DNA of 64,000 nt from Odiellus spinosus (lineage: Eukaryota > Arthropoda > Arachnida > Opiliones > Phalangiidae): the NCBI GenBank assembly GCA_963920705.1, contig OY987227.1, positions 23,523,434-23,587,433 on the forward strand. Reading direction: 5' to 3'. Below, piece after piece: positions 10,867 through 64,000 of the stretch (positions within the stretch are counted from its first letter, which is position 1; each line of letters begins with the position of its first letter). A program made the translations under genes and the position numbers. The notes beneath the pieces were generated by a model. It was not told the DNA's origin, did no database searches, and saw only the letters and a program-made list of their open reading frames with translations.

Positions 10867-13800
10867 TCATAAACAAATTGGCACTTTGACGGTAGCGAAG
10901 TGATAGTTAACCGAATGTTGTTCCCGTAGCAATACGATTGCTTTCAGTCTGTGTTTGGCTAAACTTTTTGCGTGATTTAACAGGCCGAGATAAGAACAAA
11001 ATCCATTTCCAGTATTAACAGCGTTGGTAAATGAGAAACTTCCGGCTAAGCTGTAACCGATAATTTTACGACTGCTCGAGTCAACAAGACCATCTCCATT
11101 TGGAATATTTTCGACGTAATTTTTGGCATTTTTTGTTTTACTTTTTTCTTTCACCGCTGTTTTGCGAGAAGGTTCGATGGGTCCTTTCATATTACAAGTC
11201 ATTTTGAAACGCGTCATTTCTTGATCATTTGGCAAACATACGCATGAGAATTGCGAAGCACTCGCTCCTTTTTCACATTTTATATTGACGTAAACAATGG
11301 CTTCTTTTAAGGTACTTTCTAAGCAAGTTTTAATTAGATTATCTACAGTCTCTTCCATAGGCTTCTCTAACAGTTCACTCAACAGTTTCAACTGACTTCG
11401 CTCGCGCAAGACGTAAAAATTATTAACTTTCGCATTAACATCATATTTTAGGGCCCATTGCGCTTCTAGATCAGTCCATAGAGGGTAGAATGGCGATACT
11501 ACACCCAAAACATCAAAATTTGGCCGCTTATTGGGAGGGTATTTGAAATGTTGCGTCCATAGTTCAGTACGTTTTTCCAGGGCAACTCTCCTTCCTTGAG
11601 TCGAGTCAGGATAACCACCAGGAAAAACGGGAACACCTTCTTCAATTCCGATACTCTCATCCTCTCTTAATCCTCCCACTCTAGCTTCTCGGTAAATAAA
11701 AGAGATCCAAAATGGCATAGCCCACCCAGAGGGTAAAATCACGTCACATCCGCCTTTGCCATCTAAAACCAAACCAAAGATATATTCCTGTTCCGTGGGT
11801 ATCGAGAGGGACTAGGTTTTTGTAAAAAATATGACCCTTTTTTCTGTAGATACAAAATGAAACCCCCAAGGTTGAGAGAGTACTTGTTTTTTCTTTAATG
11901 ATTACCCATTAGAATACTCGTAATTGATTGAAACAAGTACTAGCTCAAGCTGAGGACTAAGTAATATCTAATTGCGTTAACTAATCAAAATTAGAAGCTA
12001 TGAGACCAGTATCCTGTGTAGAGTAAAAGAAAAGATTTTACTGTAGCTGTAATTAGCAACTCCTGAATTTTGAATGACGATTAAAGGTATCCTGGATTCG
12101 GTTTGACCCAAACCATCAAGTTTTTCGCCTAATTATAATTAAATTAAAAATGTATTCTTGATTAAATCAGGTATTATCAATCTCAGTTCAAAGATTACAC
12201 TCTCACCATATTTTTGAAAAAATTCATTTCTCATTTGATTGATTTTGCTTGACGGCAACATTGTCCTTTTTACATTATCCCTTATTTCTTCATCCCAAAG
12301 AGGGGAACAGCAAGCTTCATGCGGAAATTCGACTATATTGGGAGCTTCTTCATTCGCATCAGGTATTGCCTTGGTTTTCTTAATAGGCAAACTAAACCTA
12401 GGATCTCGTACTGTTAGTCCCAAGACTACACCAATGGGTAACTCGGCTGAGGAACCCAAAATTGAGTGTTGTTTCCAAACCAAATTCTGACTCTCCAATA
12501 TTTTCATATTTTCTTTATCTTGGTAATAACGATGAAACCAAGAATCTGATTGAATGACTGTACCAACTTTGGAAAGATCAGAGCTTGGTAATCGCAACGA
12601 ATTATTTAAAACCGCTTGAGAAAGAGGTCCTCTTAGTCGAAACCGAATTAAGCGGTCTTTAAGGAGTATCATATTAACATTTTCATCGCCGACGAATTTA
12701 GGCAGTCTTTGAATCTGTGTTAAATCGCTTTCTCGAACCTCACTGACTTTGGCTTCATTTTTATCGCACTCCATTTGCTCTTCATTGTCGATTTTAATCT
12801 TCTTCGAAGTTGGTTCGTTATTGGGTAAATCAGCGGTACGTTTTGACAGTAGTTTTAAATTAAACAACAATATTAGAACCTCCTTTATTTCGTCATATAT
12901 GGTCGGATGACACCAAATCCAAAGTTGACGAATGGACTGGGCATCCTTCAAAATGTGTTTCGGGTTCCAAATAAAGGAAACGGGCCCGATGGCTTTGTAG
13001 GGAAATGTATTCGGATGGTATACTACGCAGTACCCTTCCCTGGTACCACACAAAAACATTTTTGCAGCAAAAGTCAACCCTGAAATAACATTTTTTTTTT
13101 TCCTAAATAGTTAACCGCATCTAATTCCACAACATTTCAAACCATTTACCTAATTTTGATGATGTTAACTGGTTTAGACCAGTTAATAAGACTGTTTCAG
13201 GGCCAAACAATTCAATACAACCATAATACGAAGTATCCTTGATAAATAATATCAACGATTTCAATTTTGATTTGTTGCCAAGTTTAAATTTGGTAAACTC
13301 GAGTTACCTGAATGAGGCAATGTTTGGCAGTGGCTCGATAGCTCGATCTGAAACTCTTATCATTGGAATGTAAGGGAAGCTTATATCCCCATTTCTCTAT
13401 CATCTTAAACCTTTTTGCGAACCAAATATGAGTTTCGAGCCAAATATTATTCCTAGCCCGACGTTCGTACTCTGATAAAAGATTGCTTGGTCGTCGTCGA
13501 TACTTTCTACTTGGACGCTTAGTCTTTTTCGCTTGGACTTTCTCAGCCTAGTCAAAAGTCTTACCATATTAAAAACTAAAAGGGACCTCAGCAAATTATT
13601 TTAAATATTATCCCCCATTGTTCTACAAATTTAAATCCAACAATTGGTTATTGGCCTAGCGCCCCATAAGGCCTCATTCCTCCCCTCTTCTTAAATAAGT
13701 TCTTGATTAAAAATGTTATAACCCTTAAAAACCTCTAATCAACACACATAATTTTAAAGTACCTCAGATGTTAATTTGTCCCTAATGCGTCTTGGTAGCC

Positions 13801-14107
13801 TTTTGATGTTGTGACTGACACTTCGGCGCCTCATGTGGAATGGTAATTGTTGACTCATTAACTTAGGATGCTTTTTCTTGGCATCAGCCATGGTCATCGC
13901 TATCTCTTGCGCCCGAGCATTGATAAACTTCATTACATTGATATCTGAAATTTATTACAATGTAGTTTTAATTACATATAACCATTTGGCATAAAATAAG
14001 CCTAGCAATATCTTGTCATGTACCATAGATAAATTCTTTCTTTGCATGTACTAACCTGTAGGAACCTCCGTACCATTGGATTCTATTTTAATCTTTTCAG
14101 ATGCCAT
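10867..14107 (-). CDS. POP1: Ribonuclease P/MRP protein subunit POP1
   Basis: Seven exons on the minus strand, in transcript order: 14107-14056, 13944-13763, 13547-13308, 13237-13150, 13079-12207, 12128-12042 and 11762-10867, joining in frame to about 805 residues. POP1 is the large protein subunit shared by nuclear RNase P (tRNA 5' processing) and RNase MRP (pre-rRNA processing). The N-terminal POP1 domain is in exons 2-3 (LPFHMRRRSVSHNIKRLPRR; THIWFAKRFKMIEKWGYKLP). Exon 5 begins GLTFAAKMFLCGTREGYCVVY and covers REGYC..GPVSFIWNP. Exon 6 gives EKLDGLGQTESRIPLIVIQN. Exon 7 has the POPLD signature CDVILPSGWAMPFWISFIYR. Reading past the exon 5 donor (GTGAGA) gives a false C-terminus ending at 12139. 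The exon 7 acceptor at TTTTAG|AT was chosen because only it keeps phase. The exon 4 acceptor is AAG, less usual. Confidence 0.92.
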
Positions 14108-14439: not shown

Positions 14440-15480
14440 CGGATTATCTTTTTTTTTGAGGAATACTTTTCAATGGTGATAATGATTTATTCATCAAGTC
14501 CTAAAGGTAATTTTGAGTATTTGTTAATCTAATCCTTATAAATAATTCCAAAAACAATTTCCGAGAGTGCTTTATTGGTATGATATACATTGTTTTTATA
14601 TTAGCCAAAAATAGGCCAAGGCTAAAAGCTTCCCGCCTTCCCTAATGTCGGTTAATAGATCTCTAATTAAATTATTTGGGACAATAATATCAACAAGGAG
14701 GGAGAAACAAACAATATTAAAATACTTTAATTATATATTACCAAAAACATATGTTTTACATAATGTAAAATTGGATTTGGTACTGTTCTGTTTGTTAAAA
14801 TGATACTTCTTATTATATAATTGATAACTCATTAAGTTTATTATTTGTACAAAATCATTACCATAAGGTCATTGCTCTCAACTTGACATTTCAGCGTGTT
14901 ACCAAATGTCTCGTTTAAGTGTATTCACAACAGGCACAACATGTTTTCCAATAGTTTAAAAAGACATTAATTATTTTAAATATTTTGTAGGTAAACGAAC
15001 GTTGAAATAATACCAAGTCATCCAGCATAGAAGCCATGGAGAAAGCTAAAATGCCGTTTTGAAAGACCACTCACCTTAAAATATTGAACCCTCCACTGAT
15101 CTGTAAGTAGACCAAAGGTTCTACCAACAACCTCTAGTACTTTCCAAGGCTTGGCGAGTGTGTTGATTCGCGTTTGTGAAATTTTCGTGTTATATTAAGT
15201 GTGAACATTTCTGGCCTAAGCTACGCATTATTTTGGATATTATGAACTCAAACAGCATTCATCATAGACCTTCAAACTGGTAAGTTTTTAATAAATTACA
15301 TGTTTGTGTTCTTTTTTTGTGAGTATATTAGCTTTATCGTGGTTATTTACGATATTGAAATCAAATAATTTAATACCAACAGTTGAGAATTGAGCGTAAT
15401 ATGATGTAATTATGAGACTTTTGGTGAGTTGGACCCAGGTTTTTTCACAAGTAGAATGATAACTTTTGGAGGTCTCCATT
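14440..15480 (+). repeat. Dispersed ~1-kb repeat, copy B
   Basis: Plus-strand partner of the inverted copy at 2560-3640. Shared blocks appear in the same order: TCAAGTCCTAAAGGTAATTT with TTGTTAATCTAATCC (about 14490-14540), GTAAAATTGGATTTGG (about 14765), CGCGTTTGTGAAATTTTCG (about 15170), GTGAACATTTCTG, and TAGACCTTCAAACTGGTAAG (about 15268) followed by TTTTTTTGTGAGTATATTAG. The CTG|GTAAGTTTT junction resembles a splice donor in both copies. No conserved protein frame is seen. The copy begins about 330 bp upstream of POP1's start codon, in opposite orientation. Confidence 0.6.
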
Positions 15481-15629
15481 TTCGTCTTAGCTACCTTTTT
15501 TTTGCTTTAATTTTGAGGCCCCTTTTAAGAGGATTTTGAAACCCCTTTCGTTTGTTTTCTAAGTCCTTTTATGTGGATTTGGGGTCCATTTGAAATTTTT
15601 ACGTAGGCTATAGCAGCCACTGCCAAATA

Positions 15630-18600
15630 CTACAAATAATAGCGACCTGGTTTTTTCCTCGTAATCTTAATTACTTACGAAAATTATAATTATATCGTTC
15701 AAATGCCTTTTAACGAGATAAAACCCGGTTAAAATCAACCAAATTCTCCTGATAATATATTTTGGGCGCCCTATGGAGATTAAGCATGGCGAAATCAGAT
15801 TTTAAATATTTTATTTAGACAAAACTAATTAGCTGATTGGTCTCAACTCGCTTTAATGGAAATAGGACCCCGAAATGAACCAGAATCCATCAAAAAAAGT
15901 TCCAGATTCGAAACTTTATTTTTGCTCATTTTCCAAAAACCGAAAAAAGGGAAAATGAAAATTTAAAATTTGGCCGAGTTCGAAAATGTCAAAAATAAAG
16001 TGTCGAATCTGGAACTTTTTTTGGTGGATTTCGGTCGCTTTTGGGGTCCTATTTCCATTAAAGCGAGTTGAGACCGATCCGTTAATCAGTTTTGTCAAAA
16101 TAAAATATTTAAAATCCAAATTCGCCATGTAAATTCTCATAGGGCGGAGATAATTTATTATTTGGAGTATTTGGTTCATTCTGACCGGGTTTTTTTCATC
16201 GTAATTAGTTACGAAAATTATAATTATATGGTTTAAATGCCTTTTAACGAGAAAAAACCCGCTTAAAATCAACCAAATAATTAAAATAAAATATTATTGG
16301 CGCCCTATGGAGATTAAGCATGGCGAAATCAGATTTTAAATATTTTATTTAGACAAAACTAATTAGCTGATTGGTCTCAACTCGCTTTAATGGAAATAGG
16401 ACCCCGAAATGAACCAGAATCCATCAAAAAAAGTTCCAGATTCGAAACTTTATTTTTGCTCATTTTCCAAAAACCGAAAAAAGGGAAAATGAAAATTTAA
16501 AATTTGGCCGAGTTCGAAAATGTCAAAAATAAAGTGTCGAATCTGGAACTTTTTTTGGTGGATTTCGGTCGCTTTTGGGGTCCTATTTCCATTAAAGCGA
16601 GTTGAGACCGATCCGTTAATCAGTTTTGTCAAAATAAAATATTTAAAATCCAAATTCGCCATGTAAATTCCCATAGGGCGGAGATAATTTATTATTTGGA
16701 GTATTTGGTTCATTCTGACCGGGTTTTTTTCATCGTAATTAGTTACGAAAATTATAATTATATGGTTTAAATGCCTTTTAACGAGAAAAAACCCGCTTAA
16801 AATCAACCAAATAATTAAAATAAAATATTATTGGCGCCCTATGGAGATTAAGCATGGCGAAATCAGATTTTAAATATTTTATTTAGACAAAACTAATTAG
16901 CTGATTGGTCTCAACTCGCTTTAATGGAAATAGGACCCCGAAATGAACCAGAATCCATCAAAAAAAGTTCCAGATTCGAAACTTTATTTTTGCTCATTTT
17001 CCAAAAACCGAAAAAAGGGAAAATGAAAATTTAAAATTTGGCCGAGTTCGAAAATGTCAAAAATAAAGTGTCGAATCTGGAACTTTTTTTGGTGGATTTC
17101 GGTCGCTTTTGGGGTCCTATTTCCATTAAAGCGAGTTGAGACCGATCCGTTAATCAGTTTTGTCAAAATAAAATATTTAAAATCCAAATTCGCCATGTAA
17201 ATTCCCATAGGGCGGAGATAATTTATTATTTGGAGTATTTGGTTCATTCTGACCGGGTTTTTTTCATCGTAATTAGTTACGAAAATTATAATTATATGGT
17301 TTAAATGCCTTTTAACGAGAAAAAACCCGCTTAAAATCAACCAAATAATTAAAATAAAATATTATTGGCGCCCTATGGAGATTAAGCATGGCGAAATCAG
17401 ATTTTAAATATTTTATTTAGACAAAACTAATTAGCTGATTGGTCTCAACTCGCTTTAATGGAAATAGGACCCCGAAATGAACCAGAATCCATCAAAAAAA
17501 GTTCCAGATTCGAAACTTTATTTTTGCTCATTTTCCAAAAACCGAAAAAAGGGAAAATGAAAATTTAAAATTTGGCCGAGTTCGAAAATGTCAAAAATAA
17601 AGTGTCGAATCTGGAACTTTTTTTGGTGGATTTTGGTCGCTTTTGGGGTCCTATTTCCATTAAAGCGAGTTGAGACCGATCCGTTAATCAGTTTTGTCAA
17701 AATAAAATATTTAAAATCCAAATTCGCCATGTAAATTCCCATATAGGGCGGATATAATTTATTATTTGGAGTATTTGGTTCATTCTGACCGGGGTTTTTC
17801 CTCGTAATTAGTTACGAAAATTATAATTATATGGTTTAAATGCCTTTTAACGAGAAAAAAACCCGCTTAAAATCAACCAAATAATTAAAATAAAATATTA
17901 TTGGCGCCCTATGGAGATTAAGCATGACGAAATCTGATTTTAAATATTTTATTTAGACAAAACTAATTAGCTGATTGGTCTCAACTCGCTTTAATGGAAA
18001 TAGGACCCCGAAATGAACCAGAATCCATCAAAAAAAGTTCCAGATTCGAAACTTTATTTTTGCTCATTTTCCAAAAACCGAAAAAAGGGAAAATGAAAAT
18101 TTAAAATTTGGCCGAGTTCGAAAATGTCAAAAATAAAGTGTCGAATCTGGAACTTTTTTTGGTGGATTTCGGTCGCTTTTGGGGTCCTATTTCCATTAAA
18201 GCGAGTTGAGACCGATCCGTTAATCAGTTTTGTCAAAATAAAATATTTAAAATCCAAATTTGCCATGTAAATTCCCATAGGGCGGAGATAATTTATTATT
18301 TGGAGTATTTGGTTCATTCTGACCGGGTTTTTTTCCTCGTAATTAGTTACGAAAATTATAATTATATGGTTTAAATGCCTTTTAACGAGAAAAAACCCGC
18401 TTAAAATCAACCAAATAATTAAAATAAAATATTATTGGCGCCCTATGGAGATTAAGCATGGCGAAATCAGATTTTAAATATTTTATTTAGACAAAACTAA
18501 TTAGCTGATTGGTCTCAACTCGCTTTAATGGAAATATGACCCCGAAATGAACCAGAATCCATCAAAAAAAGTTCCAGATTCGAAACTTTATTTTTGCTCA

Positions 18601-20240
18601 TTTTCCAAAAACCGAAAAAAGGGAAAATGAAAATTTAAAATTTGGCCGAGTTCGAAAATGTCAAAAATAAAGTGTCGAATCTGGAACTTTTTTTGGTGGA
18701 TTTTGGTCGCTTTTGGGGTCCTATTTCCATTAAAGCGAGTTGAGACCGATCCGTTAATCAGTTTTGTCAAAATAAAATATTTAAAATCCAAATTCGCCAT
18801 GTAAATTCCCATATAGGGCGGATATAATTTATTATTTGGAGTATTTGGTTCATTCTGACCGGGGTTTTTCCTCGTAATTAGTTACGAAAATTATAATTAT
18901 ATGGTTTAAATGCCTTTTAACGAGAAAAAACCCGCTTAAAATCAACCAAATAATTAAAATAAAATATTATTGGCGCCCTATGGAGATTAAGCATGGCGAA
19001 ATCAGATTTTAAATATTTTATTTAGACAAAACTAATTAGCTGATTGGTCTCAACTCGCTTTAATGGAAATATGACCCCGAAATGAACCAGAATCCATCAA
19101 AAAAAGTTCCAGATTCGAAACTTTATTTTTGCTCATTTTCCAAAAACCGAAAAAAGGGAAAATGAAAATTTAAAATTTGGCCGAGTTCGAAAATGTCAAA
19201 AATAAAGTGTCGAATCTGGAACTTTTTTTGGTGGATTTCGGTCGCTTTTGGGGTCCTATTTCCATTAAAGCGAGTTGAGACCGATCCGTTAATCAGTTTT
19301 GTCAAAATAAAATATTTAAAATCCAAATTCGCCATGTAAATTCCCATAGGGCGGATATAATTTATTATTTGGAGTATTTGGTTCATTCTGACCGGGTTTT
19401 TTCCTCGTAATTAGTTACGAAAATTATAATTATATGGTTTAAATGCCTTTTAACGAGAAAAAAACCCGCTTAAAATCAACCAAATAATTAAAATAAAATA
19501 TTATTGGCGCCCTATGGAGATTAAGCATGACGAAATCTGATTTTAAATATTTTATTTAGACAAAACTAATTAGCTGATTGGTCTCAACTCGCTTTAATGG
19601 AAATAGGACCCCGAAATGAACCAGAATCCATCAAAAAAAGTTCCAGATTCGAAACTTTATTTTTGCTCATTTTCCAAAAACCGAAAAAAGGGAAAATGAA
19701 AATTTAAAATTTGGCCGAGTTCGAAAATGTCAAAAATAAAGTGTCGAATCTGGAACTTTTTTTGGTGGATTTCGGTCGCTTTTGGGGTCCTATTTCCATT
19801 AAAGCGAGTTGAGACCGATCCGTTAATCAGTTTTGTCAAAATAAAATATTTAAAATCCAAATTCGCCATGTAAATTCCCATAGGGCGGAGATAATTTATT
19901 ATTTGGAGTATTTGGTTCATTCTGACCGGGTTTTTTTCCTCGTAATTAGTTACGAAAATTATAATTATATGGTTTAAATGCCTTTTAACGAGAAAAAACC
20001 CGCTTAAAATCAACCAAATAATTAAAATAAAATATTATTGGCGCCCTATGGAGATTAAGCATGGCGAAATCAGATTTTAAATATTTTATTTAGACAAAAC
20101 TAATTAGCTGATTGGTTTCAACTCGCTTTAATGGAAATAGGACCCCGAAATGAACCGAAATTTTTGGACATTTTCCAAAAAACGAAAAAAGGGAAAATGA
20201 AACTTTACGATTTTAGCCGAGGTCCAAAAATTATAAACGC
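15630..20240. repeat. Satellite array, 534-536-bp units made of inverted ~267-bp halves
   Basis: Eight near-identical units (reference points at 15916, 16450, 16984, 17518, 18054, 18588, 19123 and 19657) plus diverged edges. Each unit contains two palindrome centres about 267 bp apart. Around the first, the arm with CAACTCGCTTTAATGG and GTTCCAGATTCG is mirrored by CGAATCTGGAAC and CCATTAAAGCGAGTTG. Around the second, CGAGAAAAAACCCG is mirrored by CCGGGTTTTTTTC. Units 4 and 6 share marker variants (GGATTTTGGTCGC, CATATAGGGCGG), showing multi-unit duplication. The left edge (15630-15760) is diverged and the right edge breaks near 20154 into a shortened variant. The array holds repeated minus-strand open frames of up to 118 codons, which are by-products of the repeat. 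Confidence 0.93.
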
Positions 20241-20435
20241 CGTTGGGTTTTACCAGCAAATTAAAACCACTTAAAAACTTTTATCCACGACCCAAACATC
20301 GTCTTCTAAGGACTCGTGGGTTCATACAAATCTGGAATGCCTGGAAGTATCAGGGAATTTGTATCTTAACAAAAAATCAGGAAAATTCGAAAAATCTGTC
20401 ACAAATCAGGAAATTCATTGAAACTTTTAAAGTTA

Positions 20436-20581
20436 AGAGTCGGGGTCTGGGCAAGATATCTCTGATTATTTTATCTTTATTCCCTTATAAATCCAATGTA
20501 ATCAAAATATTTAACTGATTATTATTAATAATTAACTGATTATCCAAATATTTGTGGATTATCTTGTCCAAAACCCGACCT
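20436..20581. mobile_element. MITE with AGAGTCGGGG / CCCCGACCTCT-type ends, copy 1
   Basis: About 146 bp. The left end AGAGTCGGGGTCTGGGCAAG is mirrored by CTTGTCCAAAACCCGACCTT on the right; the interior has TAACTGATTATTATTAATAA. A better preserved copy is at 23225-23381. It lies about 200 bp after the end of the satellite array. Confidence 0.65.
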
Positions 20582-20766
20582 TTATTAGAGAACTTGGGCT
20601 GGAACGTCAAATAAGATCAGTGTTTGTAGAGTACTAAATAAACGCCCGATAAGCCATTTGAACGCGATAAGTAATAAAGGGACCATGAAATCCGGGAATT
20701 TCGAGTTAAACTGTTTTTAAGTGTAGCCAATTTAGGGAATTTTGATAGTTAGGGACCTCCTTCCAT

Positions 20767-21058
20767 CAAGAAGGATCAGATAAGGAGAGGAAAAGTGGGA
20801 ACGGCGCGGCTCCTACTGCGTCGGCCTAAACTCCCACTTTGGGAGAACGGGGGACAGACGGGGGTAGAGATGCTTCGTGGTAAATTGTTGTCACGTGGGT
20901 AAAACGAATCCTTTATGAGACGCGCTAGCTAGCGACCACGTGACAACAGTTTACCTCGAGAATTTCCTATCCCCCCTTTCCACCCGAGTGGGAGGTTGGC
21001 TCTTCTCTCTCTAACTCAACGCAGCCCCACTTTTCCTCTCCTTATCTGATCCTTCTTG
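20767..21058 (+). mobile_element. Foldback MITE with 7-bp target duplication, copy 1
   Basis: 292 bp, with near-perfect terminal repeats of about 34 bp: CAAGAAGGATCAGATAAGG on the left, mirrored on the right. It is flanked by the direct repeat CTTCCAT (20760-20766 and 21059-21065). A second, internal inverted repeat (TGTTGTCACGTGG / CCACGTGACAACA) surrounds GCTAGCTAGC, so most of the element can fold on itself. A second copy in the opposite orientation is at 30786-31066. There is no coding capacity. The 7-bp duplication does not fit the usual 8 bp of hAT; P- or Dada-type transposons are possible parents. Confidence 0.85.
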
Positions 21059-22165: not shown

Positions 22166-24116
22166 TTAATAAGTTTCCGTCGTATTTCGATGATGAGGGT
22201 TGTTGTTGTAAGCGTTCATTCTAGCGTAATCGTCGTAGGAGTTTTGCGCCGCTAAATCATAGTGATTATTCGGGTCGGGATCGAATGAGGAGGCTTCGTT
22301 TGATCCCGTTTCATCCCCATCTTCTTCACCATCTTCCGCTGGACTTGAGGCATCTACGGAACGGGAAGACGCCGAACCGAAAGTAAAAGGCCACGTCTGA
22401 AACAAATTACACGTAGAATCAAGAACTTTGAACTCATTCAAGTACATAAATGGGTTCTTGATATAATGATATATATGCGGGACAGATTAATCACCAAATT
22501 ACTATATTCGTGATAAGCTTTTCAATTAGAAAGGCGCCCTTATTTTTTTTCTCGACATTCTAATTCCGTGATATTTCCCTGGTAATTCGTGGATTTTTTT
22601 CAATTGATATTTCCAGGTGCACCTAAATTAACCTGTCCGTCTTCAAAAAGTGAAAGGCGCAAGGCGCGATATTATGATTACGCTATCTCATTAGCGCAAA
22701 CGTACCCGTACCTCAAATTTCGGGCGTGCTAGTCCCTTTTAAATCCATTTAATGGATACTTATTTTCAACTTATTTTAGAATATTTTAGTAACGGCCCGT
22801 AATTAGAATATTTATGATAGGAAAAAATAATAATAATTAACGGAACCGGGTATAGATTTTTAACGGCAACGCTCGCGTTTGAGTTTCCAAATAATAAGGT
22901 TTTTTGGTTCATTTACGATTGGAAGGTAATTTGTGAATAACCATAGTATAAAGTTTAAACTCTTCGACGAACTGTGTTTTCGATATTAATCGCTCTTCAA
23001 ATTTACGTAATCGAATCGAAACTCGATAATTATCGAGGTAATCGAAATTGGCAATTTAAATTATATCAAAAGGAAATATCGGAATAATTTCAAATATGGT
23101 AATTTTTTAGTCACCAACCTTTGACGTAAATCAGTTGGCTGATTAAACGTTTAAAGTTTAATAATTTGGTGATAAAATATAATATTTTACGTGGGAAAAT
23201 CATGATTTTAAATCATTTATTTTTAGAGGTCGGGGTTTGGATAAGATAATTTCTGTTTGTTTTATCGTTATTCATATTTTGAAATTATCCACGGGAAGTC
23301 TATGATAAATGCAATGTAATCGCGAATAATTAACTGATTAACTTATTATTTGTGGATAATCTTGTTCAAACCCCGACCTCTACTTACTTTAAAAGAAAAC
23401 TAATTATAGGATGAGTTTCAACTCGATTAAATGTAAATAGAACTCCGATTAGAATCGAAACACATTCACAAAAACAATTTCCCAGTTACGAAAGTTTATT
23501 TATGAACATTTTGTAATAAACGTGAAAATCGGAATATGATTTCAAATCATAATTAAATTAATAAAATATTTCTCCTACCTGACTAAATGCCCTGATTTTA
23601 AACACTTTTAAAAATAATGTTTTAGAAAACCTTTTGAGTTTTTAATTTCAATTATTAAAAATATGGAGGACAAATTTATTTTCGTTTTAATCGATAGAGA
23701 GATTGAGATATGGTACATTGAACGGAAACGTGTACGTGAAGCTTTTCTTTTTTACGATACATTGATCAGGTGAGATTGACGAACCAGTCCCCGTTCATTC
23801 ATAGAATTACTTGGAAATTAAAACTTACGAAGTTAATGGGATGAAAGGAGCCCTGCTGCGAATCGTCTTCGGCCAAAACTTTCCTGAGATGCGAAATATA
23901 ACTGGAAGCCAGTCTAAGAGTGTCCAGTTTTGATAACTTGGTATCCGCAGGCACCCACGGAAGGGACGTTTTCAAACGCGAGAAAGCTTTGCTTAGAACC
24001 CTCATTCTGGCCCTTTCCCGGGCGTTGGCCGCGTTCCTTTGAACTGGACGCTCCTTACGAGTAGTTCTACGAATCGAAGAATTTTCATGACCCTGATTTC
24101 GACGACGTCGTGCCAT
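22166..24116 (-). CDS. bHLH transcription factor, MSC/TCF21 (Pod-1/musculin) family
   Basis: Two exons: 24116-23829 and 22396-22166, separated by a 1.43-kb intron (GTAAGT donor, TTTCAG acceptor), giving 172 residues (TCF21 is 179). Exon 1 encodes the whole bHLH: basic region [19 protein letters not shown] (about residues 27-45), helix 1, loop [12 protein letters not shown], helix 2 [18 protein letters not shown]. The sequence after the domain, HPINFTWPFTFG, spans the splice junction and matches the conserved HPVNLTWPF of TCF21. The C-terminus is acidic then Asn/Tyr-rich and not conserved. In insects the single member of this family (HLH54F) directs caudal visceral mesoderm; vertebrate members act in facial muscle and epicardium. 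It binds E-boxes as a dimer with E proteins in the nucleus. The intron contains a MITE and a satellite relic. Confidence 0.92.
23225..23381. mobile_element. MITE with AGAGGTCGGGG ends, copy 2, in bHLH intron
   Basis: 157 bp with clear terminal inverted repeats: AGAGGTCGGGGTTTGGATAA on the left, mirrored by ...CAAACCCCGACCTCT on the right. The interior TAACTGATTAACTTATTATT matches the copy at 20436. It abuts a diverged satellite half-unit at 23383. Confidence 0.75.
23383..23540 (+). repeat. Solo relic of the satellite half-unit
   Basis: The sequence runs AAACTAATTATAGGATGAGTTTC..AACTCGATTAAATG..AAATAGAACTCCG and then CGAAAGTTTATTTATGAACATTTT, in the same order as the satellite's left arm (AAAACTAATTAGCTGATTGG..AACTCGCTTTAATGG..ATAGGACCCCG..CGAAACTTTATTTTTGCTCATTTT). 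It is a strongly diverged single copy outside the array. Confidence 0.6.
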
Positions 24117-24790
24117 CGGTCAAACTACGGAAGCAAACCGAGCGAAAGATTAACAAAACGAAATTTCTCTACCAAAAATAATGGAGATAATTCCCATTTC
24201 AATCCGAATCTTTGAAAAAAAAAATTATGTTTCTTCGCCAACACGGCTATACGACGTTGACGTAACTTGGGAGTCTCGAATTTCAAACATAACAATTTTT
24301 AAAAGGCGTTTTGTTTTTACGAAAAAGATGGGGATTTTTAAGGGACCCACCAAGAGGATTTTACGGGTTTGTTGTTTTCTCTTAAACATCGTGCACATTT
24401 GACCTTTTCTTAGATAGATAAACTGACAAATCAAACGGGATTAGGCACAACGATGACATAACGCGCTTATATTTTTGATTTGACGCTTTAGAACCCACCA
24501 TTAGTCGGTAAAAGACACAATTTCAATGGGAAACTAGGTGCCAATAAGATTGCGACTAAACTCTTAGCAAACAGATTAGTTTAGGACACTCATAGCTCTT
24601 TTATACTATACTGACTTAACTCGTACATTTACAAGAACGGGAAAATATCATATATACAAATTTGTCACCGGACTAAAAATATCCTAAACAAACGAAATTT
24701 AAATTAAATCATCCCTATCTACTTTTCTACCAATAGTTCTTATCATTGAAATCAATCCGCTTCAGGTCTGACCATTGAGACAACTACTAA
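24117..24790. other. Upstream region of bHLH gene
   Basis: No supported gene. Overlapping open frames of about 70 codons on both strands (24181-24434) have no recognisable features. The bHLH promoter is expected here. Confidence 0.35.
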
Positions 24791-25108
24791 AGTAATATCG
24801 CGTCGATAAAAGTAATATCGCGTCGATAAAAGTAATATCGCGTCGATAAAATAAATATCGCGTCGATAAAAGTAATATCGCGTCGATAAAAGTAATATCG
24901 CGTCGATAAAAGTAATATCGCGTCGATAAAAGTGATATCGCGTCGATAAAAGTGATATCGCGTCGATAAAAGTGATATCGCGTCGATAAAAGTAATATCG
25001 CGTCGATAAAAGTAATATCGCGTCGATAAAAGTAATATCGCGTCGATAAAAGTAATATCGCGTCGATAAAAGTAATATCGCGTCGATAAAAGTGATATCG
25101 CGTCATTG
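24791..25108. repeat. 20-bp minisatellite, about 16 copies
   Basis: The unit AGTAATATCGCGTCGATAAA repeats with almost no change; variants are AGTGATATCG (grouped copies) and one ATAAATATCG. Each unit contains TATCGCGTCGATA, nearly self-complementary. The reverse strand stays open across the array only because no stop codon occurs in the unit. Confidence 0.95.
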
Positions 25109-43497: not shown

Positions 43498-45407
43498 ATC
43501 ATCTATAGAGTTTGATTCTTTTCCTCAGAATACCGGTTTAACACTTGTATCCATTATAAATGTTTGTTAACTAGAAACGAAATAAACTATAAAAGCATAC
43601 CCAGTAAATCAGTGTGACATTTTTTGTATCCTAATTTAAAACACTTCTAAACCATTTTTTTTTTTAAATCTGCCCATTCTTTTCTTTATCAATAGATTGC
43701 ATTAGAACCAAATCAGAATTTTTTAATTTATCTTTAAGTCTCATTGAAATGTTTTTTCTTGCTAAGATATTAAAATAGAAATCACTTAGAGCAACCAAAT
43801 GAGATAGTGATTTCAAAAATCAGCTCAGATTATTAAAGTTGGCCTCGTCTGAAAAATCTTTGACTCTCCCGTAAACCTAAAATAGTTATAATATATGCCT
43901 AAATATTTCATTGTGACGTCAAACCTACGTGAGGCGAGCTCATTAAGTTCAATTATAATTTGATGTTAACAAAAGCTTCAAATTTCTTGAGACTTGTACT
44001 TGAAAGGGAATATAAATCAATTAAAAAAAAAGAAATGCTAACGCGTGCGACTTTTGTATCTTAAAGTAATTTATGCCGATTGTTGAGAATATTAGACAGA
44101 AAGTGACATTATGTCCAACTATATTTCCACCTTGGACCTGAAATTTCAGGAAAGTAGAATATTGTAAAAACTTTAAAAATTTGTCATAAATCAGGGAAAG
44201 GTTTGATATAGGAGCAGGTCCGCCCCTACATTTTTTAAACCTGGTTTTACAAAAAGATATTCTGGTAGCGAAAAATTATAGTTTATATATGGGTTTTTCT
44301 AAATATTTGGCAATTGAAAAACATAGACCAATCAGTGAAAAGTCATTTAAAAAACATAAACCGATCAGTGAAAAGTCATTTAAAAAACATAGACCAATCA
44401 GTGAAAAGTCATTGAAAAACATAGACCAGTGAAAATTCATTGAAAAACACCTAGACATATCAATGGAAATTCATTGAAATATACCTAGACATATCAATGA
44501 AAATTCATTGAAAAATACATAGACATATCAATGAAAATTCATTGAAAAATACATAGACATATCAATGAAAATTCATTGAAAAATACATAGACATATCAAT
44601 GAAAATTCATTGAAAAATACATAGACATATCAATGAAAATTCATTGAAAATACCCTAGATATTATCAGTGAAAATTCATTGAAAAAAACCTAGATATTAT
44701 CAGTGAAAATTTATTGGAAAAAAAACCTAGATATTATCAATGAAAATTCATTGAAAAAAACCTATATATTATCAGTGAAAATTCATTAAAAAAACTATAT
44801 ATTGTCAGTGAAACTTTATTGATAAAAACCTAGATATTATCACTGAAAATTCATTGAAAAAAACCTAGATATCAGTAAAAATTCATTGGAAAAACCGGGA
44901 AATATCCTAAGCCTATTTAAGCCCTGGAAGCTTTATAGCTAGCTACCCCTTTGAAGGACAAAGTAGTGTCACTGCCCACCCCAGAATGTCCACGATCCAT
45001 ACTCCTTCTTAATTGATTATCTCTTGATATTAACCGTTATTACGTTTTCCGATTAAATTTTGCCTTGAAGGGAATTAAAAGATTGCCTTATCTTTCCCTA
45101 TAGATAAATGAACACGCGTTTCTTCTCGAAAAGGATAGTTTTCCCACTAGTTACGAGACAAATTAAATCGCAAGCGTTTTTCATTTCGTGCAAAAGGTTA
45201 GAAGCTCGATTATTGACCATAATCCATAAATAAGGGACGCGGCAGTAATATTAGCAGACTTTAAATACGCAGTTGTCCAGTCTGTTGTGTCCTCCCCTAA
45301 TTCCCGGTTTCTACTCTACGAATTACTCGATTAAAAGAGCGTCTTATTGCCGGGTCCCTTTATAAGCCTTAAAAATGATAACTCTAAAACCACATCGTTA
45401 ATCTAGA
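43498..45407. other. Spacer between DDX1 and GRHPR
   Basis: No supported gene. It holds the degenerate minisatellite at 44315-44895 and the GRHPR upstream region, with TAGCAGACT (45252-45260), a one-mismatch form of the gene-proximal motif, about 150 bp before the GRHPR start. Confidence 0.45.
44315..44895. repeat. ~31-33-bp degenerate minisatellite, about 17 copies
   Basis: Units of the type AAAACATAGACCAATCAGTG + AAAAGTCATT at the left change gradually to ATACATAGACATATCAATG and then to AACCTAGATATTATCAGTG + AAAATTCATTG at the right. The gradient of variants shows local duplication of neighbouring units. Confidence 0.9.
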
Positions 45408-48400
45408 ATGTCTTCGACTGATACTAAAGTTTACGTAGCTACGACTTTGGTACCCGAAGCTTCTTTAGATATTCTCAGAAAAAGGTACTCTTTCGTGATT
45501 AGTTTTTTAAAGGGCAAGTCTCGTTTAATATTTTTTAGTGTGGGACGATTTGGATATAGTTGGTGTTATTTAAACGAAACTTATCCTTTAACTATATTTA
45601 AACGAAAGTTAATTTGAAATTATTTAATGAATATTAAAATTAAATTAAGATATGCGACTTCTGTGTGGTCGGAGGATCGGCCTATTCCCCGATCCGAACT
45701 TCTAAAGGCTGTCAGGGGTATTGACGGCCTCTTTTGTAGCGGATTAAACAAAATTGATAACGAACTTCTAGACGCGGCAGGTAAAATAAAAAATTTCAAT
45801 TATTTAAAGCGAATCCTTGTTAGAATAATCCATTCCAAGTATCCATGTCCAAAATGAAAACGCAAATTTAAATTAGGCCGAAATTTTCAAAATGTGTAAT
45901 TTAGGCCCACTTAGATTCTAAATTAACAAAAATGAACCGATTTTGACATGTCGTGGGAATCTATTAAGTAAATAATGTCCGCTCGGCAGGTCCTCAACTA
46001 AAAGTTATTGGAACGGTCTCAGTGGGATACGATCACATTGACCTGCCAGAATGCAAAAGAAGGTAAAGTTTAAGTCTATCCAATTTGGCATTCATTTAAT
46101 CATCATTACGTGTCGTAAATTATAGAAATATATTAGTTGGAAATACTCCGGACGTTTTGACGGACGCGGTGGCAGAATTAGCAGTTGGTCTTCTTCTGGC
46201 CACCAGCCGTTCTTTTTTCCGCGCTCATAACGAGTTGACCAGGTGATTTTTATTTAAAAGTAGAAAAACACTTGTTCAAGGGTTAGTTGGCGTAATCTTG
46301 GAGAAATATATAGGAGGGATTAGCGAACTGTCAATTTTCATGAAGAGACACCTTTCGAGGTTGTCATTTCAGATTCTCAAACATCCAGGGTGGCCAATTG
46401 AACAGTTTCTTTCGAATTTGGGCGGTTTTCAATGGTCCAATGTCCTCGAAAAATGTAATACCAAAATTTTAACCATCTCATTTCCCCCGAGCTGACTTAT
46501 ATTTGTCGAATCTTAGTTTTTAGGCTCTAATTTAAAGTATTTATAATACAAACTTGTTTTTGTCATTAACCGCTTTGGGAATGGTTAAACGAAATATCCA
46601 AATGAATCTGACTAATTTTTCTAGCGATACTAAAGAAGATTTACGTTAAACACGCGGAATTAGTCACTCTCCCATCTCCACCAATTTTTGTGGTTTTTAA
46701 AAAGTTGGAAAAGGAGATCGGAACACGGACATAGATGCTCTCAGTAGTACGAATTTAGTACCGCCAACTTATCCAAACATTGAATCATTCTACTTCATCA
46801 TAATATAAAGACAACAGTTGATTTTGCGCGCATTCTGACACACGTGAATTAATATTTATATTAATATTAATTAATTTTTTAATAGTATATAAAAAAATAA
46901 TAAAAATATTACCAGAGGTATATAATAACCCCCTTCGGGGGGAAGTATGAAAGGTAGGCAAAATCGACGAACAACAAGTGCCCGGCGTAAATCGCGGCGG
47001 ATCGACCCATTACACCATTTTGAAACTCACTAAATTTTCCCTACGCACACTTCCGGAACTCGCGAGCTGAAGTCAACCTTCGACTCCATTTTAACAGACA
47101 GCCTGACTTCTGAGACAGGAAGTTCTAAACACAAATCGAGCCGTCTTGTTTATACAAAGACCATTTACTAGAGTAGCGACATTGAGAAGTCCAGCGCGAG
47201 CTAGTGGCCTAGATAGTCAGCAGCGGGCTCTTGTTGTTCGTGATTTTTAGCATTGGTAGTATAGGGGCTTTAATACTTCCCCCCCGAGGGGGGTTATTAT
47301 ATACCTCTGATATTACCCATAATCCTCCAAAACAATTGTGACAACTTCACTTTAAACATAATATAATTTATTTTATTACGATTTTTATGTTGACTGTTTA
47401 AAAATTATTCAAAATAATCGATTTTAGCTCCATAATAATTTATTAAAAATATATATTTCAGCTTCAAAGTTGAATTAAAATTATATCTCTTCCTCAATCA
47501 GATGTAACGATCTATTTACTACTCTAATAGATCAACATTACGCCAGTTATCCTTGAACAAGAGTGTAGTCTCTTGATCTTAGTTATTTATCAGTTTATTA
47601 ATGACAATCGCGATTAGCGGACACTGGGAAAAGGTAATCTGGGCACCCATGTACCTGACCGGTACGTCTGTCCAAGGATCAACTGTGGGAATTGTTGGTT
47701 TTGGAAGAATAGGTTCGATAACATTGGAGCTAATTTAATTACTCTTCTACCTATATTTATATTAAGATTCAATTTCCAGGCCAAGCGATTGGTCAAAGGC
47801 TTAACGCTTTCAATATTAAAAAATTGTTGTACAGTGGAAATACCGAGAAACCAGAGGGCGAGTTATTATTACTATCAGAAGTAAATGAATTGAAGTTAAG
47901 GCCTATTTTTATAACGTAAGACTTGAGTACCTTGTTCAACATTCTGAAAATCCCACGCACAGGATCCTGGGACAAGCCCATTTTTATTTGTTTATTCGCC
48001 TAAATTTTTCTAATTAGAGTCTGAATAATATTAGGCTTTTTAGGCGTTAGTTCCTCAAATGCCCGGATGCAGAAATAGAGGCCGATTGGTGGCATTTTAG
48101 AATTAATTCGTTTTACAGGGTTCGTACACGACCTGGAAAACCTGGAAAAGTCAGGGAATTTGGAAATTGGCCCAAAAGTCAGGGAAAAGTCAGGGAATTT
48201 GGAAATTGGCCCAAAAGTCAGGGAATTTGGAAATTGGCCCAAAAGTCAGGGAATTTGGAAAGTGGCCCCAACGGTCAGGGAAAAGTCAGGGAATTTGAAA
48301 ATAGGACAAATGGTCAGAGAAAATAAATATTTTGGTATGTGTCAAGGAACTGTTTATGATTGGTTTACCAATCAGTTGTAACGTAATTATTATAAACTGA

Positions 48401-59424: not shown

Positions 59425-60290
59425 CAAACTAGCTTTTTCACATATACTGTATATTTATCAAGGGGGTGGATAAAAACCCGATATCTCAAAAACGGTCAAA
59501 GTTTTTTTAAATAATTCTCAATTATTCTAATTAAACTCCTCTTTCGAATGAGATAGGTCTAAACGAATTCAACTCATTCCTTCATTAGGAAATAAAATGA
59601 TCAAACTTAGGAAAAAACTAGTTTTTTCACAAATTTTATACTATATAAATATCAGGGGGGGAACATAAAAAGCCATATATCTCGGCTCAAAAACGGTCAA
59701 AGTTTTTTAAATAATTCTCAATTATTCTAATTAAACTCCTCTTTCGAATGAGATAGGTCTAAACGAATTCAACTCATTCCTTCATTAGGAAATAAAATGA
59801 TCAAACTTAGGAAAAAACTAGTTTTTTCACAAATTTTATACTATATAAATATCAGGGGGGGAACATAAAAAGCCATATATCTCGGCTCAAAAACGGTCAA
59901 AGTTTTTTAAATAATTCTCAATTATTCTAATTAAACTCCTCTTTCGAATGAGATAGGTCTAAACGAATTCAACTCATTCCTTCATTAGGAAATAAAATGA
60001 TCAAACTTAGGAAAAAACTAGTTTTTTCACAAATTTTATACTATATAAATATCAGGGGGGGAACATAAAAAGCCATATATCTCGGCTCAAAAACGGTCAA
60101 AGTTTTTTAAATAACTCTCAATTATTCTAATTAAACTCCTCTTTCGAATGAGATAGGTCTAAACGAATTCAACTCATTCCTTCATTAGGAAATAAAATTA
60201 TCAAACTTAGGAAAAAACTAGTTTTTTCACAAATTTTATACTATATAAATATCAGGGGGGGGGGGCATAAAAAGCCATATATCTCGGCGG
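59425..60290. repeat. 200-bp tandem repeat, four copies
   Basis: The landmark CTATATAAATATCAGGGGGG recurs at 59641, 59841, 60041 and 60241, an exact 200-bp period; a diverged form is at about 59450. Copies are nearly identical. Diverged relatives (ACTCCTCTTTCAAATGAGAT, TTCAACTCAT words) continue in the loop at 60680-61030, so the array was once longer and was interrupted by the inverted repeat. Confidence 0.92.
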
Positions 60291-61270
60291 GTTGAGACGG
60301 GCTGAGAAAGAGTTGAGACGGGTTGAGAAAGAGTTGAGACGGGTTGAGAAAGAGTTGAGACGGGTTGAGAAAGAGTTGAGACGGGTTGAGAAAGAGTTGA
60401 GACGGGTTGAGAAAGAGTTGAGACGGGTTGAGAAAGACCGGTCCAAGATTGGAGATTGGATGTGAATCCGCTGACAATGAGGTACGATTCGACCCGTTTC
60501 CGTCACCTTGGCCTTTCCTCTGGAACAAAGCTGAATGCCCTACATTTAACTACTCCACTCAGATACACTAATCCCATTGAACGCATTTCGTAAACGATGC
60601 TTCATCAAAAGTTCGCTTTTCAAAAAAAGAGCGCTAATATAACAAAAAAATCTAAAACTTTTTTGGAGAAAAAATCCCTTATTTCTCAGCTGAAAACGGT
60701 AAATTTTTTGGAAATAATAATTACTTATAGTATTTAAACTAATCTTTCCGATGAGATAAGTCTAGTTAAATTCAACTCATTGCTTCAAAATCAAATATAA
60801 TTATGAAAATAAATCAATACCACTTATTTCACATAATGTGGGAGTAATTTTTGAAATAATTATCACTTGTAGTAACTAAACTCCTCTTTCAAATGAGATA
60901 AGTGTAGTTAAATTCAACTCATACCTTCATAATCAAATATAATTTTGAAAAAAAAAAAAAAAAAACGGTTTTATATTAATCTTGGAGGAATTCAATTTAC
61001 GCTTATATCTCTGCTCAAAAACAGACGAAGTCCTTAAAATAATTATTACTTTATATATATATAAATATATATATTTTTTTGAAAAGCGAACTTTTGATGA
61101 AGCATCGTTTACGAAATGCGTTCAATGGGTTTAGTGTATCAGAGTGGAGTAGTTAAATGTAGGGCATTCAGCTTTGTTCCAGAGGAAAGGCCAAGGTGAC
61201 GGAAACGGGTCGAATCGTACCTCATTGTCAGCGGATTCGCATCCAATCTCCAATCTTGGACCGGTCTTTC
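60287..61270. repeat. Large inverted repeat with ~190-bp unique arms and 21-bp repeats at both ends
   Basis: Left arm about 60436-60626 and right arm about 61071-61263 mirror each other with only a few mismatches (for example TGTGAATCC versus TGCGAATCC in mirrored sense). The spacer is about 445 bp and consists of decayed 200-bp repeat units. Outside each arm lies the same 21-bp minisatellite, inverted: about seven copies on the left (60287-60440) and about 130 on the right. It looks like a composite terminal-inverted-repeat element with minisatellite termini. Confidence 0.85.
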
Positions 61271-64000
61271 TCAACCCGTCTCAACTCTTTCTCAACCCGT
61301 CTCAACTCTTTCTCAACCCGTCTCAACTCTTTCTCAACCCGTCTCAACTCTTTCTCAACCCGTCTCAACTCTTTCTCAACCCGTCTCAACTCTTTCTCAA
61401 CCCGTCTCAACTCTTTCTCAACCCGTCTCAACTCTTTCTCAACCCGTCTCAACTCTTTCTCAACCCGTCTCAACTCTTTCTCAACCCGTCTCATCTCTTT
61501 CTCAACCCGTTTCAACTCTTTCTCAACCCGTCTCAACTCTTTCTCAACCCGTCTCAACTCTTTCTCAACCCGTCTCAACTCTTTCTCAACCCGTCTCAAC
61601 TCTTTCTCAACCCGTCTCAACTCTTTCTCAACCCGTCTCAACTCTTTCTCAACCCGTCTCAACACTTTCTCAACCCGTCTCAACTCTTTCTCAACCCGTC
61701 TCAACTCTTTCTCAACCCGTCTCAACTCTTTCTCAACCCGTCTCAACTCTTTCTCAACCCGTCTCAACTCTTTCTCAACCCGTCTCAACTCTTTCTCAAC
61801 CCGTCTCAACTCTTTCTCAACCCGTCTCAACTCTTTCTCAACCCGTCTCAACTCTTTCTCAACCCGTCTCAACTCTTTCTCAACCCGTCTCAACTCTTTC
61901 TCAACCCGTCTCAACTCTTTCTCAACCCGTCTCAACTCTTTCTCAACCCGTCTCAACCCGTCTCAACTCTTTCTCAACCCGTCTCAACTCTTTCTCAACC
62001 CGTCTCAACTCTTTCTCAACCCGTCTCAACTCTTTCTCAACCCGTCTCAACTCTTTCTCAACCCGTCTCAACTCTTTCTCAACCCGTCTCAACTCTTTCT
62101 CAACCCGTCTCAACTCTTTCTCAACCCGTCTCAACTCTTTCTCAACCCGTCTCAACTCTTTCTCAACCCGTCTCAACTCTTTCTCAACCCGTTTCAACTC
62201 TTTCTCAACCCGTTTCAACTCTTTCTCAACCCGTTTCAACTCTTTCTCAACCCGTCTCAACTCTTTCTCAACCCGTCTCAACTCTTTCTCAACCCGTCTC
62301 AACTCTTTCTCAACCCGTCTCAACTCTTTCTCAACCCGTCTCAACTCTTTCTCAACCCGTCTCAACTCTTTCTCAACCCGTCTCAACTCTTTCTCAACCC
62401 GTCTCAACTCTTTCTCAACCCGTCTCAACTCTTTCTCAACCCGTCTCAACTCTTTCTCAACCCGTTTCAACTCTTTCTCAACCCGTCTCAACTCTTTCTC
62501 AACCCGTCTCAACTCTTTCTCAACCCGTCTCAACTCTTTCTCAACCCGTCTCAACTCTTTCTCAACCCGTCTCAACTCTTTCTCAACCCGTCTCAACTCT
62601 TTCTCAACCCGTCTCAACTCTTTCTCAACCCGTCTCAACTCTTTCTCAACCCGTCTCAACTCTTTCTCAACCCGTCTCAACTCTTTCTCAACCCGTCTCA
62701 ACTCTTTCTCAACCCGTCTCAACTCTTTCTCAACCCGTCTCAACTCTTTCTCAACCCGTCTCAACTCTTTCTCAACCCGTCTCAACCCGTCTCAACTCTT
62801 TCTCAACCCGTCTCAACTCTTTCTCAACCCGTCTCAACTCTTTCTCAACTCTTTCTCAACTCTTTCTCAACTCTTTCTCAACTCTTTCTCAACTCTTTCT
62901 CAACTCTTTCTCAACTCTTTCTCAACCCGTCTCAACCCGTCTCAACCCGTCTCAACTCTTTCTCAACCCGTCTCAACTCTTTCTCAACCCGTCTCAACTC
63001 TTTCTCAACCCGTCTCAACTCTTTCTCAACCCGTCTCAACTCTTTCTCAACCCGTCTCATCTCTTTCTCAACCCGTTTCAACTCTTTCTCAACCCGTCTC
63101 AACTCTTTCTCAACCCGTCTCAACTCTTTCTCAACCCGTCTCAACTCTTTCTCAACCCGTCTCAACTCTTTCTCAACCCGTCTCAACTCTTTCTCAACCC
63201 GTCTCAACTCTTTCTCAACCCGTCTCAACTCTTTCTCAACCCGTCTCAACTCTTTCTCAACCCGTCTCAACTCTTTCTCAACCCGTCTCAACACTTTCTC
63301 AACCCGTCTCAACTCTTTCTCAACCCGTCTCAACTCTTTCTCAACCCGTCTCAACTCTTTCTCAACCCGTCTCAACTCTTTCTCAACCCGTCTCAACTCT
63401 TTCTCAACCCGTCTCAACACTTTCTCAACCCGTCTCAACTCTTTCTCAACCCGTCTCAACTCTTTCTCAACCCGTCTCAACTCTTTCTCAACCCGTCTCA
63501 ACTCTTTCTCAACCCGTCTCAACTCTTTCTCAACCCGTCTCAACTCTTTCTCAACCCGTCTCAACTCTTTCTCAACCCGTCTCAACTCTTTCTCAACCCG
63601 TCTCAACTCTTTCTCAACCCGTCTCAACTCTTTCTCAACTCTTTCTCAACTCTTTCTCAACTCTTTCTCAACTCTTTCTCAACCCGTCTCAACTCTTTCT
63701 CAACCCGTCTCAACTCTTTCTCAACCCGTCTCAACTCTTTCTCAACCCGTCTCAACTCTTTCTCAACCCGTCTCAACTCTTTCTCAACCCGTCTCAACTC
63801 TTTCTCAACCCGTCTCAACTCTTTCTCAACCCGTCTCAACTCTTTCTCAACCCGTCTCAACTCTTTCTCAACCCGTCTCAACTCTTTCTCAACCCGTCTC
63901 AACTCTTTCTCAACCCGTCTCAACTCTTTCTCAACCCGTCTCAACTCTTTCTCAACCCGTCTCAACTCTTTCTCAACCCGTCTCAACTCTTTCTCAACCC
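61261..64000. repeat. 21-bp minisatellite, about 130 copies, runs off the window
   Basis: The unit TCTTTCTCAACCCGTCTCAA + C fills the last 2.7 kb. Shorter 12-bp (TCTCAACTCTTT) and 9-bp (ACCCGTCTC) subunits occur in clusters near 61950, 62775, 62840-62945 and 63635-63680, which shift the phase. Point variants (TCTCATCTC, CGTTTCAAC, CAACACTTT) recur as sets, so blocks of many units were duplicated. On the minus strand the unit reads as the heptad LRRVEKE, open for up to 280 codons; I regard this as a by-product, since 21 is a multiple of three and no codon of the unit is a stop. Confidence 0.95.

Follow-up and report, generated by a model that had tools for sequence, protein, structure and literature searches.

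Satellites whose repeat unit is itself a long inverted repeat raise the question of how such symmetry originates, and one of them lies within a 64,000-nucleotide stretch of the Odiellus spinosus genome (assembly GCA_963920705.1, contig OY987227.1, positions 23,523,434 to 23,587,433; hereafter, the window). The array occupies positions 15644–20229 on the plus strand and comprises ~8.6 units of 534 bp, each consisting of half-unit A in forward orientation (266 bp consensus) and half-unit B in reverse orientation (268 bp). The computed order of arms is B−(1–42), then A+ B− 8 times, then a partial A+ in 2 pieces ending at 20199, with the mapping of whole units extending to 20229. The first full A half-unit (A+, arm positions 1–266) lies at 15692–15957 on the plus strand and the first B half-unit (B−, arm positions 1–256 aligned, inverted relative to A) at 15969–16225 on the minus strand. 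The head-to-head inversion centre of unit 1 falls at 15957–15958 (15957.5) and the tail-to-tail centre between B− and the next A+ at 16224–16225 (16224.5); both recur every ~534 bp, the inversion centres of the array being spaced by ~267 bp. The ~22 bp immediately to the left (15622–15643, plus strand) appear satellite-like by eye and probably represent a truncated A-arm fragment, CCAAATACTACAAATAATA, joined to the array out of phase.

A preliminary description of the locus had proposed this inverted-dimer organization, which a self-comparison yielding parallel diagonals alone would have contradicted. Both kinds of matches were found, confirming the proposal. Direct copies recur with a period of 534–536 bp, and in the best 300-bp register 8 of the 9 are 96%–100% alike, the last, partial copy reaching 67%. 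The 30 strongest antiparallel matches, which include half-base variants of one centre, fall on centres every ~267 bp and share 6–184 12-mers each (at least 26 in 29 of the 30), compared to at most 3 in 20 mononucleotide shuffles. Consistently, tandem copies of the unit aligned with gaps to their own reverse complement are 76%–79% identical. The further proposal that the array grew by copying blocks of units is borne out by near-identical pairs, with 2 alignment columns distinguishing units 4 and 6 and a single column distinguishing units 5 and 8; no column separates units 2 and 3, and all remaining pairs among units 2–8 differ at 3–11 columns. Tandem Repeats Finder, with 500 as the longest period in its output, gave no entry for the 534-bp array, and Rfam produced no match at gathering score within 15000–21000.

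The array starts ~1.7 kb upstream of the most N-terminal detected exon of a POP1 gene on the minus strand (10870–13927), recognized by matches to the POPLD, POP1_C and POP1_N domains, with coordinates converted from C3:23536744–23536971 and C3:23537190–23537360 to window numbering. At 23396–23539 on the plus strand, 3.2 kb downstream of the array, part of the unit recurs as a diverged solo fragment with 72% identity. The array itself shows no sign of coding capacity: the longest stop-to-stop frame, of 125 aa, occurs 5 times, recurring with the unit (one copy is at 16450–16827, minus strand).

A genome-wide search with the unit revealed that the array has numerous relatives, other arrays being among the things that the preliminary description had suggested looking for. 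Across the 443 Mb and 286 contigs of the assembly, the unit yielded 288 first-look candidates, of which 31 were scored, resulting in 509 matches; by hand count, at least 31 arrays on 12 contigs are present among the matches listed. A 25-base core motif common to both arms occurs 922 times in forward and 921 times in reverse orientation, and given that 22 loci contain 248 exact motif copies for 315 half-units, the genome can be estimated to harbor ~2,300 half-units, or ~0.6 Mb of the satellite. In all 21 arrays analyzed with their flanks (the window array and L009 to L028), the interior order is A+ B−, apart from fragments at array edges, a B+ on the left margin of L018 and the truncations that affect L027 and L028. 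The 21 arrays with both ends read span ~1.3–9.3 kb, including the one beside POP1 in the window, a size range drawn from the 31 scored of 288 candidates and from an assembly in which long blocks may be absent. Units are homogenized within arrays, as typical of satellites, with a mean distance of 0.037 (21 arrays with more than 1 full unit), compared to 0.105 when the consensuses of 24 arrays are set against one another (140 full units in all). The nearest relative of an array resides on the same chromosome for 9 of the 24 arrays, against a permuted mean of 1.6, with 1 of 5,000 permutations as high, and the window and L009 arrays, 1 Mb apart, are mutual nearest relatives. Both observations fit local spread.

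Comparison of the flanks of the 21 arrays provided insights into the origin of the satellite. Mirror-image flanks were found at L018, L021 and L026, with outer ends all close to GGGGAGATTTCCGTTAACCGACCCCC. Several arrays are part of elements with a common order, starting with GGGGAGATTTCC, in which a terminal block is followed by a linker, the array, the inverted linker and the inverted terminal block, the outer parts forming terminal inverted repeats (TIRs). A search with the terminal sequence returned 687 first-look candidates, and 94 exact 26-base matches are present in the genome (46 and 48 on the 2 strands), the reversed control giving 0. The terminal block is separated from arm A by a linker of ~107 bp, which meets the arm near position 70. 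In total, 7 linker pairs occur in inverted orientation, with satellite between them in C11 and C1:28.3; in C12, both linker matches run ~50 bp into array sequence. The fullest element read, C11:7480954–7483097 (2.1 kb), aligns with its own reverse complement at 89% identity along almost the entire length. It consists of a ~380-bp terminal block starting with GGGGAGATTTCCG, the ~107-bp linker, the arms A−(70–1), B+, a B-like inverted arm, A+, B− and A+(1–70), the inverted linker and the inverted terminal block. Arrays end at arm A positions 66–71 in 9 of the 25 annotated loci (L010, L014, L016, L021, L026, L028, C11, L049 and L050), of which C11, L049 and L050 had been chosen because a TIR lay there. 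As in foldback transposons, long TIRs are present at both ends of L018, L021, L026 and C11, but not of the window copy, and enclose internal tandem repeats, the number of full half-units being variable (4 in C11 and ~19 in L026). No transposase frame is present in the 2 elements scanned, where the longest stop-to-stop frames are 100 aa (L018) and 98 aa (L048, part of C11).

Several features of the terminal block were observed in passing. The block (L048:1501–1880) is itself an imperfect palindrome with a TTAGG/TTGGG-like core recognizable by eye. In L039, L043, L045 and L047 it is followed by another tandem repeat, which is CAATTTGTGTGTCAATAGGGACCCATAATTC-like, and the upstream flank is nearly identical in L039, L041, L043, L045 and L047, suggesting that the terminal block is also embedded in a second family of repeats. 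The possibility that a single TIR block constitutes a complete element was discarded, visual inspection of L041 and L042 having shown no matching duplications.

Exact 8-bp target-site duplications, identified by eye and then checked by script, flank 5 of the 9 TIR pairs tested, namely, L018 (GACTGTAG), L021 (TTACCGAA), C11 (GGGTCAGC), C12 (GTTACAAA) and C16 (ATTTAAAG), the chance expectation being ~2.8e-5 per pair. The 9 include a new test, for which 5 further TIR pairs were picked from coordinates alone and only their ends were fetched; 2 of these (C12 and C16) have exact duplications. The 701 bases of the C16 interior, fetched blind, proved to be satellite, 85% identical to the window unit over 702 alignment columns. 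Among the 4 pairs lacking an exact duplication, L026 and C5:14.45 show none, C3:11.87 matches at 7 of 8 positions in a shifted register only, and C5:23.2 (G000:C5:23226919–23230840) has inverted flanks in place of a duplication. The latter flanks are themselves inverted repeats, GTTAGTCAGCCGGGATTCC, with the palindrome extending beyond the element. The preliminary description had envisaged solo half-unit copies with duplicated targets; the duplications exist, but flank the larger TIR element rather than a solo half-unit.

These duplications enclose TIRs and array as a single unit in L018, L021 and C11, which, together with the mirror-image flanks of L018, L021 and L026, argues against an ordinary satellite dispersed through extrachromosomal circles or unequal exchange, with the nearby TIRs reflecting nothing but insertion preference. 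We consider that scenario improbable, even if it would accommodate array ends at many phases and the close relationship of the window and L009 arrays 1 Mb apart, for which the flank comparison showed no match adjoining both array ends. The duplications oppose it as the sole route; some of the TIR-less arrays could possibly have followed it.

Instead, the window array probably derives from a family of non-autonomous foldback-type DNA transposons with long TIRs, representing their core in detached and locally amplified form. Searches of the window for remnants of the terminal block or linker returned nothing but poly-A-like, within-array and other short chance-level matches, and this copy has no TIRs and hence no target-site duplication abutting them; lacking both TIR and linker, it is best read as a core that became detached and expanded locally. 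Considering the inverted-dimer unit, the TIR- and linker-bounded arrays, their 8-bp duplications and the homogenization within arrays, the following route appears most likely. A transposase acting in trans would have mobilized non-autonomous foldback elements, the palindromic core of which could have gained A+ B− units by unequal exchange or replication slippage, and long arrays may then have lost or outgrown their TIR ends, as in the window. An inverted-dimer unit would arise naturally from amplification of a segment of a mirror-symmetric element, and a transposon core would explain both the mirrored shape of the unit and its spread over many chromosomes. The preliminary description did not include this reading because the rest of the genome was needed to recognize it.

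The association between TIRs and arrays is partial. A clear terminal block facing the array, or a linker, was found at 5 of the 21 arrays with flanks (L014, L018, L021, L025 and L026), and weaker pieces of the terminal block lie near 4 others, with 2 pieces 77%–82% identical at L016 and one 42–47 bp piece each at L012, L015 and L017. The remaining 12, including the window array, have no piece of either. At 1.1 kb from L016 there is, in addition, a full TIR end, which faces the wrong way, as does the exact TIR at C1:26074881. Terminal block and linker are both present at L049 and L050, edges chosen because a TIR lay there. On C1, for which the exact sites of both are complete, satellite is found no more than 2 kb from 3 of the 10 exact TIRs (binomial P 5e-7), 1 of these 3 facing the wrong way. 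Conversely, among the 12 loci recovered in the TIR search, satellite is found at 4 (L018 twice, L026 and C11).

The partial association bears on the order of events. An older inverted-dimer satellite might have existed first, a piece of it being picked up by a TIR transposon and spread later, as reported for miDNA4 in Xenopus in the available portions of 2 reviews (PMC9659126, PMC12628747). The 12 arrays free of terminal block and linker would be expected under this order, as would the 8 TIR-search loci without satellite within 1.5 kb on each side (3.1 kb in all) and the fact that the arms resemble the terminal block and linker at chance level only. Weighing against it, the junction between arm A ~70 and the linker recurs, mirrored at both ends of C11 and L021 (left linker shortened), and the whole C11 element is one palindrome, although a single capture event would agree with the recurrent junction and the palindrome too. 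We regard capture of a pre-existing satellite as possible but rather unlikely, and favor a foldback transposon core as the source.

The 2 arms have diverged from each other to a greater extent than the arrays have. When the half-unit consensuses of 24 arrays are compared, A and B separate into 2 groups, the exception being the A arm of C11, which groups with B. The mean distance between A and B of one unit is 0.207, whereas A–A and B–B distances between arrays are 0.103 and 0.108, respectively. With the A/B split deeper than the divergence between arrays, the inverted dimer appears older than its dispersal, and, judging from these consensus distances, the A and B arms no longer seem to be homogenized with each other. 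Divergence is uneven along the arm: 3 bins of 25 columns each (126–150, 151–175 and 201–225) contain no consensus differences between A and B, and the longest identical run, of 74 columns, exceeds the longest in all 5,000 permutations (58). Diversity between arrays is also low at 151–175 and 201–225, but ordinary at 126–150. Such near-invariant stretches may represent binding sites or products of conversion.

The preliminary description had suggested that the array could form cruciforms or double-stranded transcripts and siRNAs. One unit is indeed predicted to fold with −260 kcal/mol (z −22.8 relative to 100 shuffles), so that these structures are chemically possible. This very stable predicted hairpin, together with the stretches that hardly vary between arms or arrays, is what one would expect if selection for cruciforms or double-stranded RNA maintained the palindromes. 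However, the arms are ~20% apart and belong to separate groups, and compensatory change is absent from 23 array consensuses (C11 left out), where 78.93% of the positions are matched, equal to the permuted mean of 78.97%, and double changes number 13 against 12.9 expected from permuting arms. Pairing is thus not maintained, selection on it finds no support, and we judge maintenance through such selection to be very improbable. We found no evidence of a host function for the window array, which most likely has none.

Searches for the enzyme that might mobilize the elements did not tie any transposase to the TIRs. A P-type search gave 386 first-look candidates, of which 150 were scored; for the 112 that share a contig with an exact TIR, the smallest distance is 1.2 kb. 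The domain at this distance, on the inner side of a TIR on C3, was considered as an autonomous partner but not borne out, with equal-scoring copies on C2 and C17 having no TIR at that offset. In a hAT search (220 first-look candidates, 150 scored), the smallest distance is 44 kb for the 94 that share a contig with an exact TIR. On C1, all 55 exact core-motif sites fall within 24.9–34.9 Mb and all listed P-type matches below 15.8 Mb, suggesting that arrays and transposase-rich regions differ in location.

By analogy, the elements are of a known kind, that of Tetris of Drosophila virilis, the new aspect being the amplification of a unit with inverted-dimer structure. As described in the accessible text (PMC4079207), Tetris is a foldback-type element without a known transposase. 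Its 3 complete copies have 8–9 bp target duplications, and its long TIRs contain internal tandem repeats, of which longer arrays exist outside the element; DAIBAM is a shorter relative with ends common to Tetris. The elements described here share the foldback type, the 8-bp duplications, the tandem repeats inside a TIR element and the longer arrays outside. In Tetris, the repeats, TIR-220, are ~220 bp long and arranged in tandem within the outer domain of both TIRs, with amplification favored in beta-heterochromatin (PMC4079207), whereas the unit in O. spinosus is an inverted dimer with a centre every half-unit, a distinction drawn from description rather than sequence, and the arrays are dispersed, the window one lying beside genes. 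Galileo, assigned to the P superfamily by its transposase, likewise has long TIRs and 7- or 8-bp target duplications, with internal tandem repeats, described as direct, in the TIRs of one copy (PMC4168063, as far as its available text goes); it differs in that no transposase is tied to the elements studied here and in that their repeats are inverted dimers. The Xenopus MITE-borne satellites miDNA4 and Xstir consist of tandem repeats inside a non-autonomous TIR element, and growth to arrays and loss of ends have been proposed for miDNA4 (PMC9659126, PMC12628747); these are different elements, and the available portions of the reviews do not describe an inverted-dimer unit for Xenopus satellites.

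Among satellites with internal inversions, Tribolium madens TmSat2 and the 1061-bp satellite of T. brevicornis contain inverted segments of ~300 and 470 bp inside the monomer; TmSat2 occupies multi-megabase, probably (peri)centromeric regions, with no TIR element mentioned in the available text (PMC13081366). By contrast, the arrays read here are a few kb long and some are inside TIR elements. The same text calls a long inversion inside a satellite unit uncommon, in line with the rarity claimed in the preliminary description, and leaves its origin unexplained. In the available passages of the open-licence literature on inverted-dimer, palindromic-monomer and tandem-MITE satellites and on foldback elements with satellites, neither this family nor the combination of a foldback element with an inverted-dimer satellite was recognized. 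The co-occurrence, in one genome, of array-bearing TIR elements, a small 4-arm element and long TIR-less arrays outlines a stepwise route from foldback transposon to satellite, and suggests a simple test for other inverted-dimer satellites, in which their short, dispersed copies would be examined for flanking TIRs and target duplications. On a more speculative note, and with considerable doubt, inverted-dimer satellites in general might be fossils of foldback transposons, with symmetry imposed by core amplification, arrays still mobile as TIR cargo, and arm positions ~151–175 and ~201–225 bound by a transposase or host protein.

Other repeats are present in the window. A 20-bp tandem repeat with 15.8 copies and 97% matches occupies 24789–25104. 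A 34-bp array at 44317–44894 and a 28/39-bp array with AAAAGTCAGGGAATTT at 48144–48282 resemble, by eye, sequence beside the satellite arrays L017 (right) and L024 (left). Toward the end of the window, a four-copy array of a 200-bp repeat (59485–60288) is followed by a 7-copy array (60291–60437) with a sense opposite to that of a long 21-bp minisatellite, TCTTTCTCAACCCGTCTCAAC, which extends from 61265 to the window end at 64000. Elsewhere in the assembly, contig C286 can be read as COX1 using the invertebrate mitochondrial code, as expected of an invertebrate, and 9 of the 13 COX1-like matches are located on a single contig (G000:C17), suggesting that nuclear mitochondrial insertions are concentrated there.
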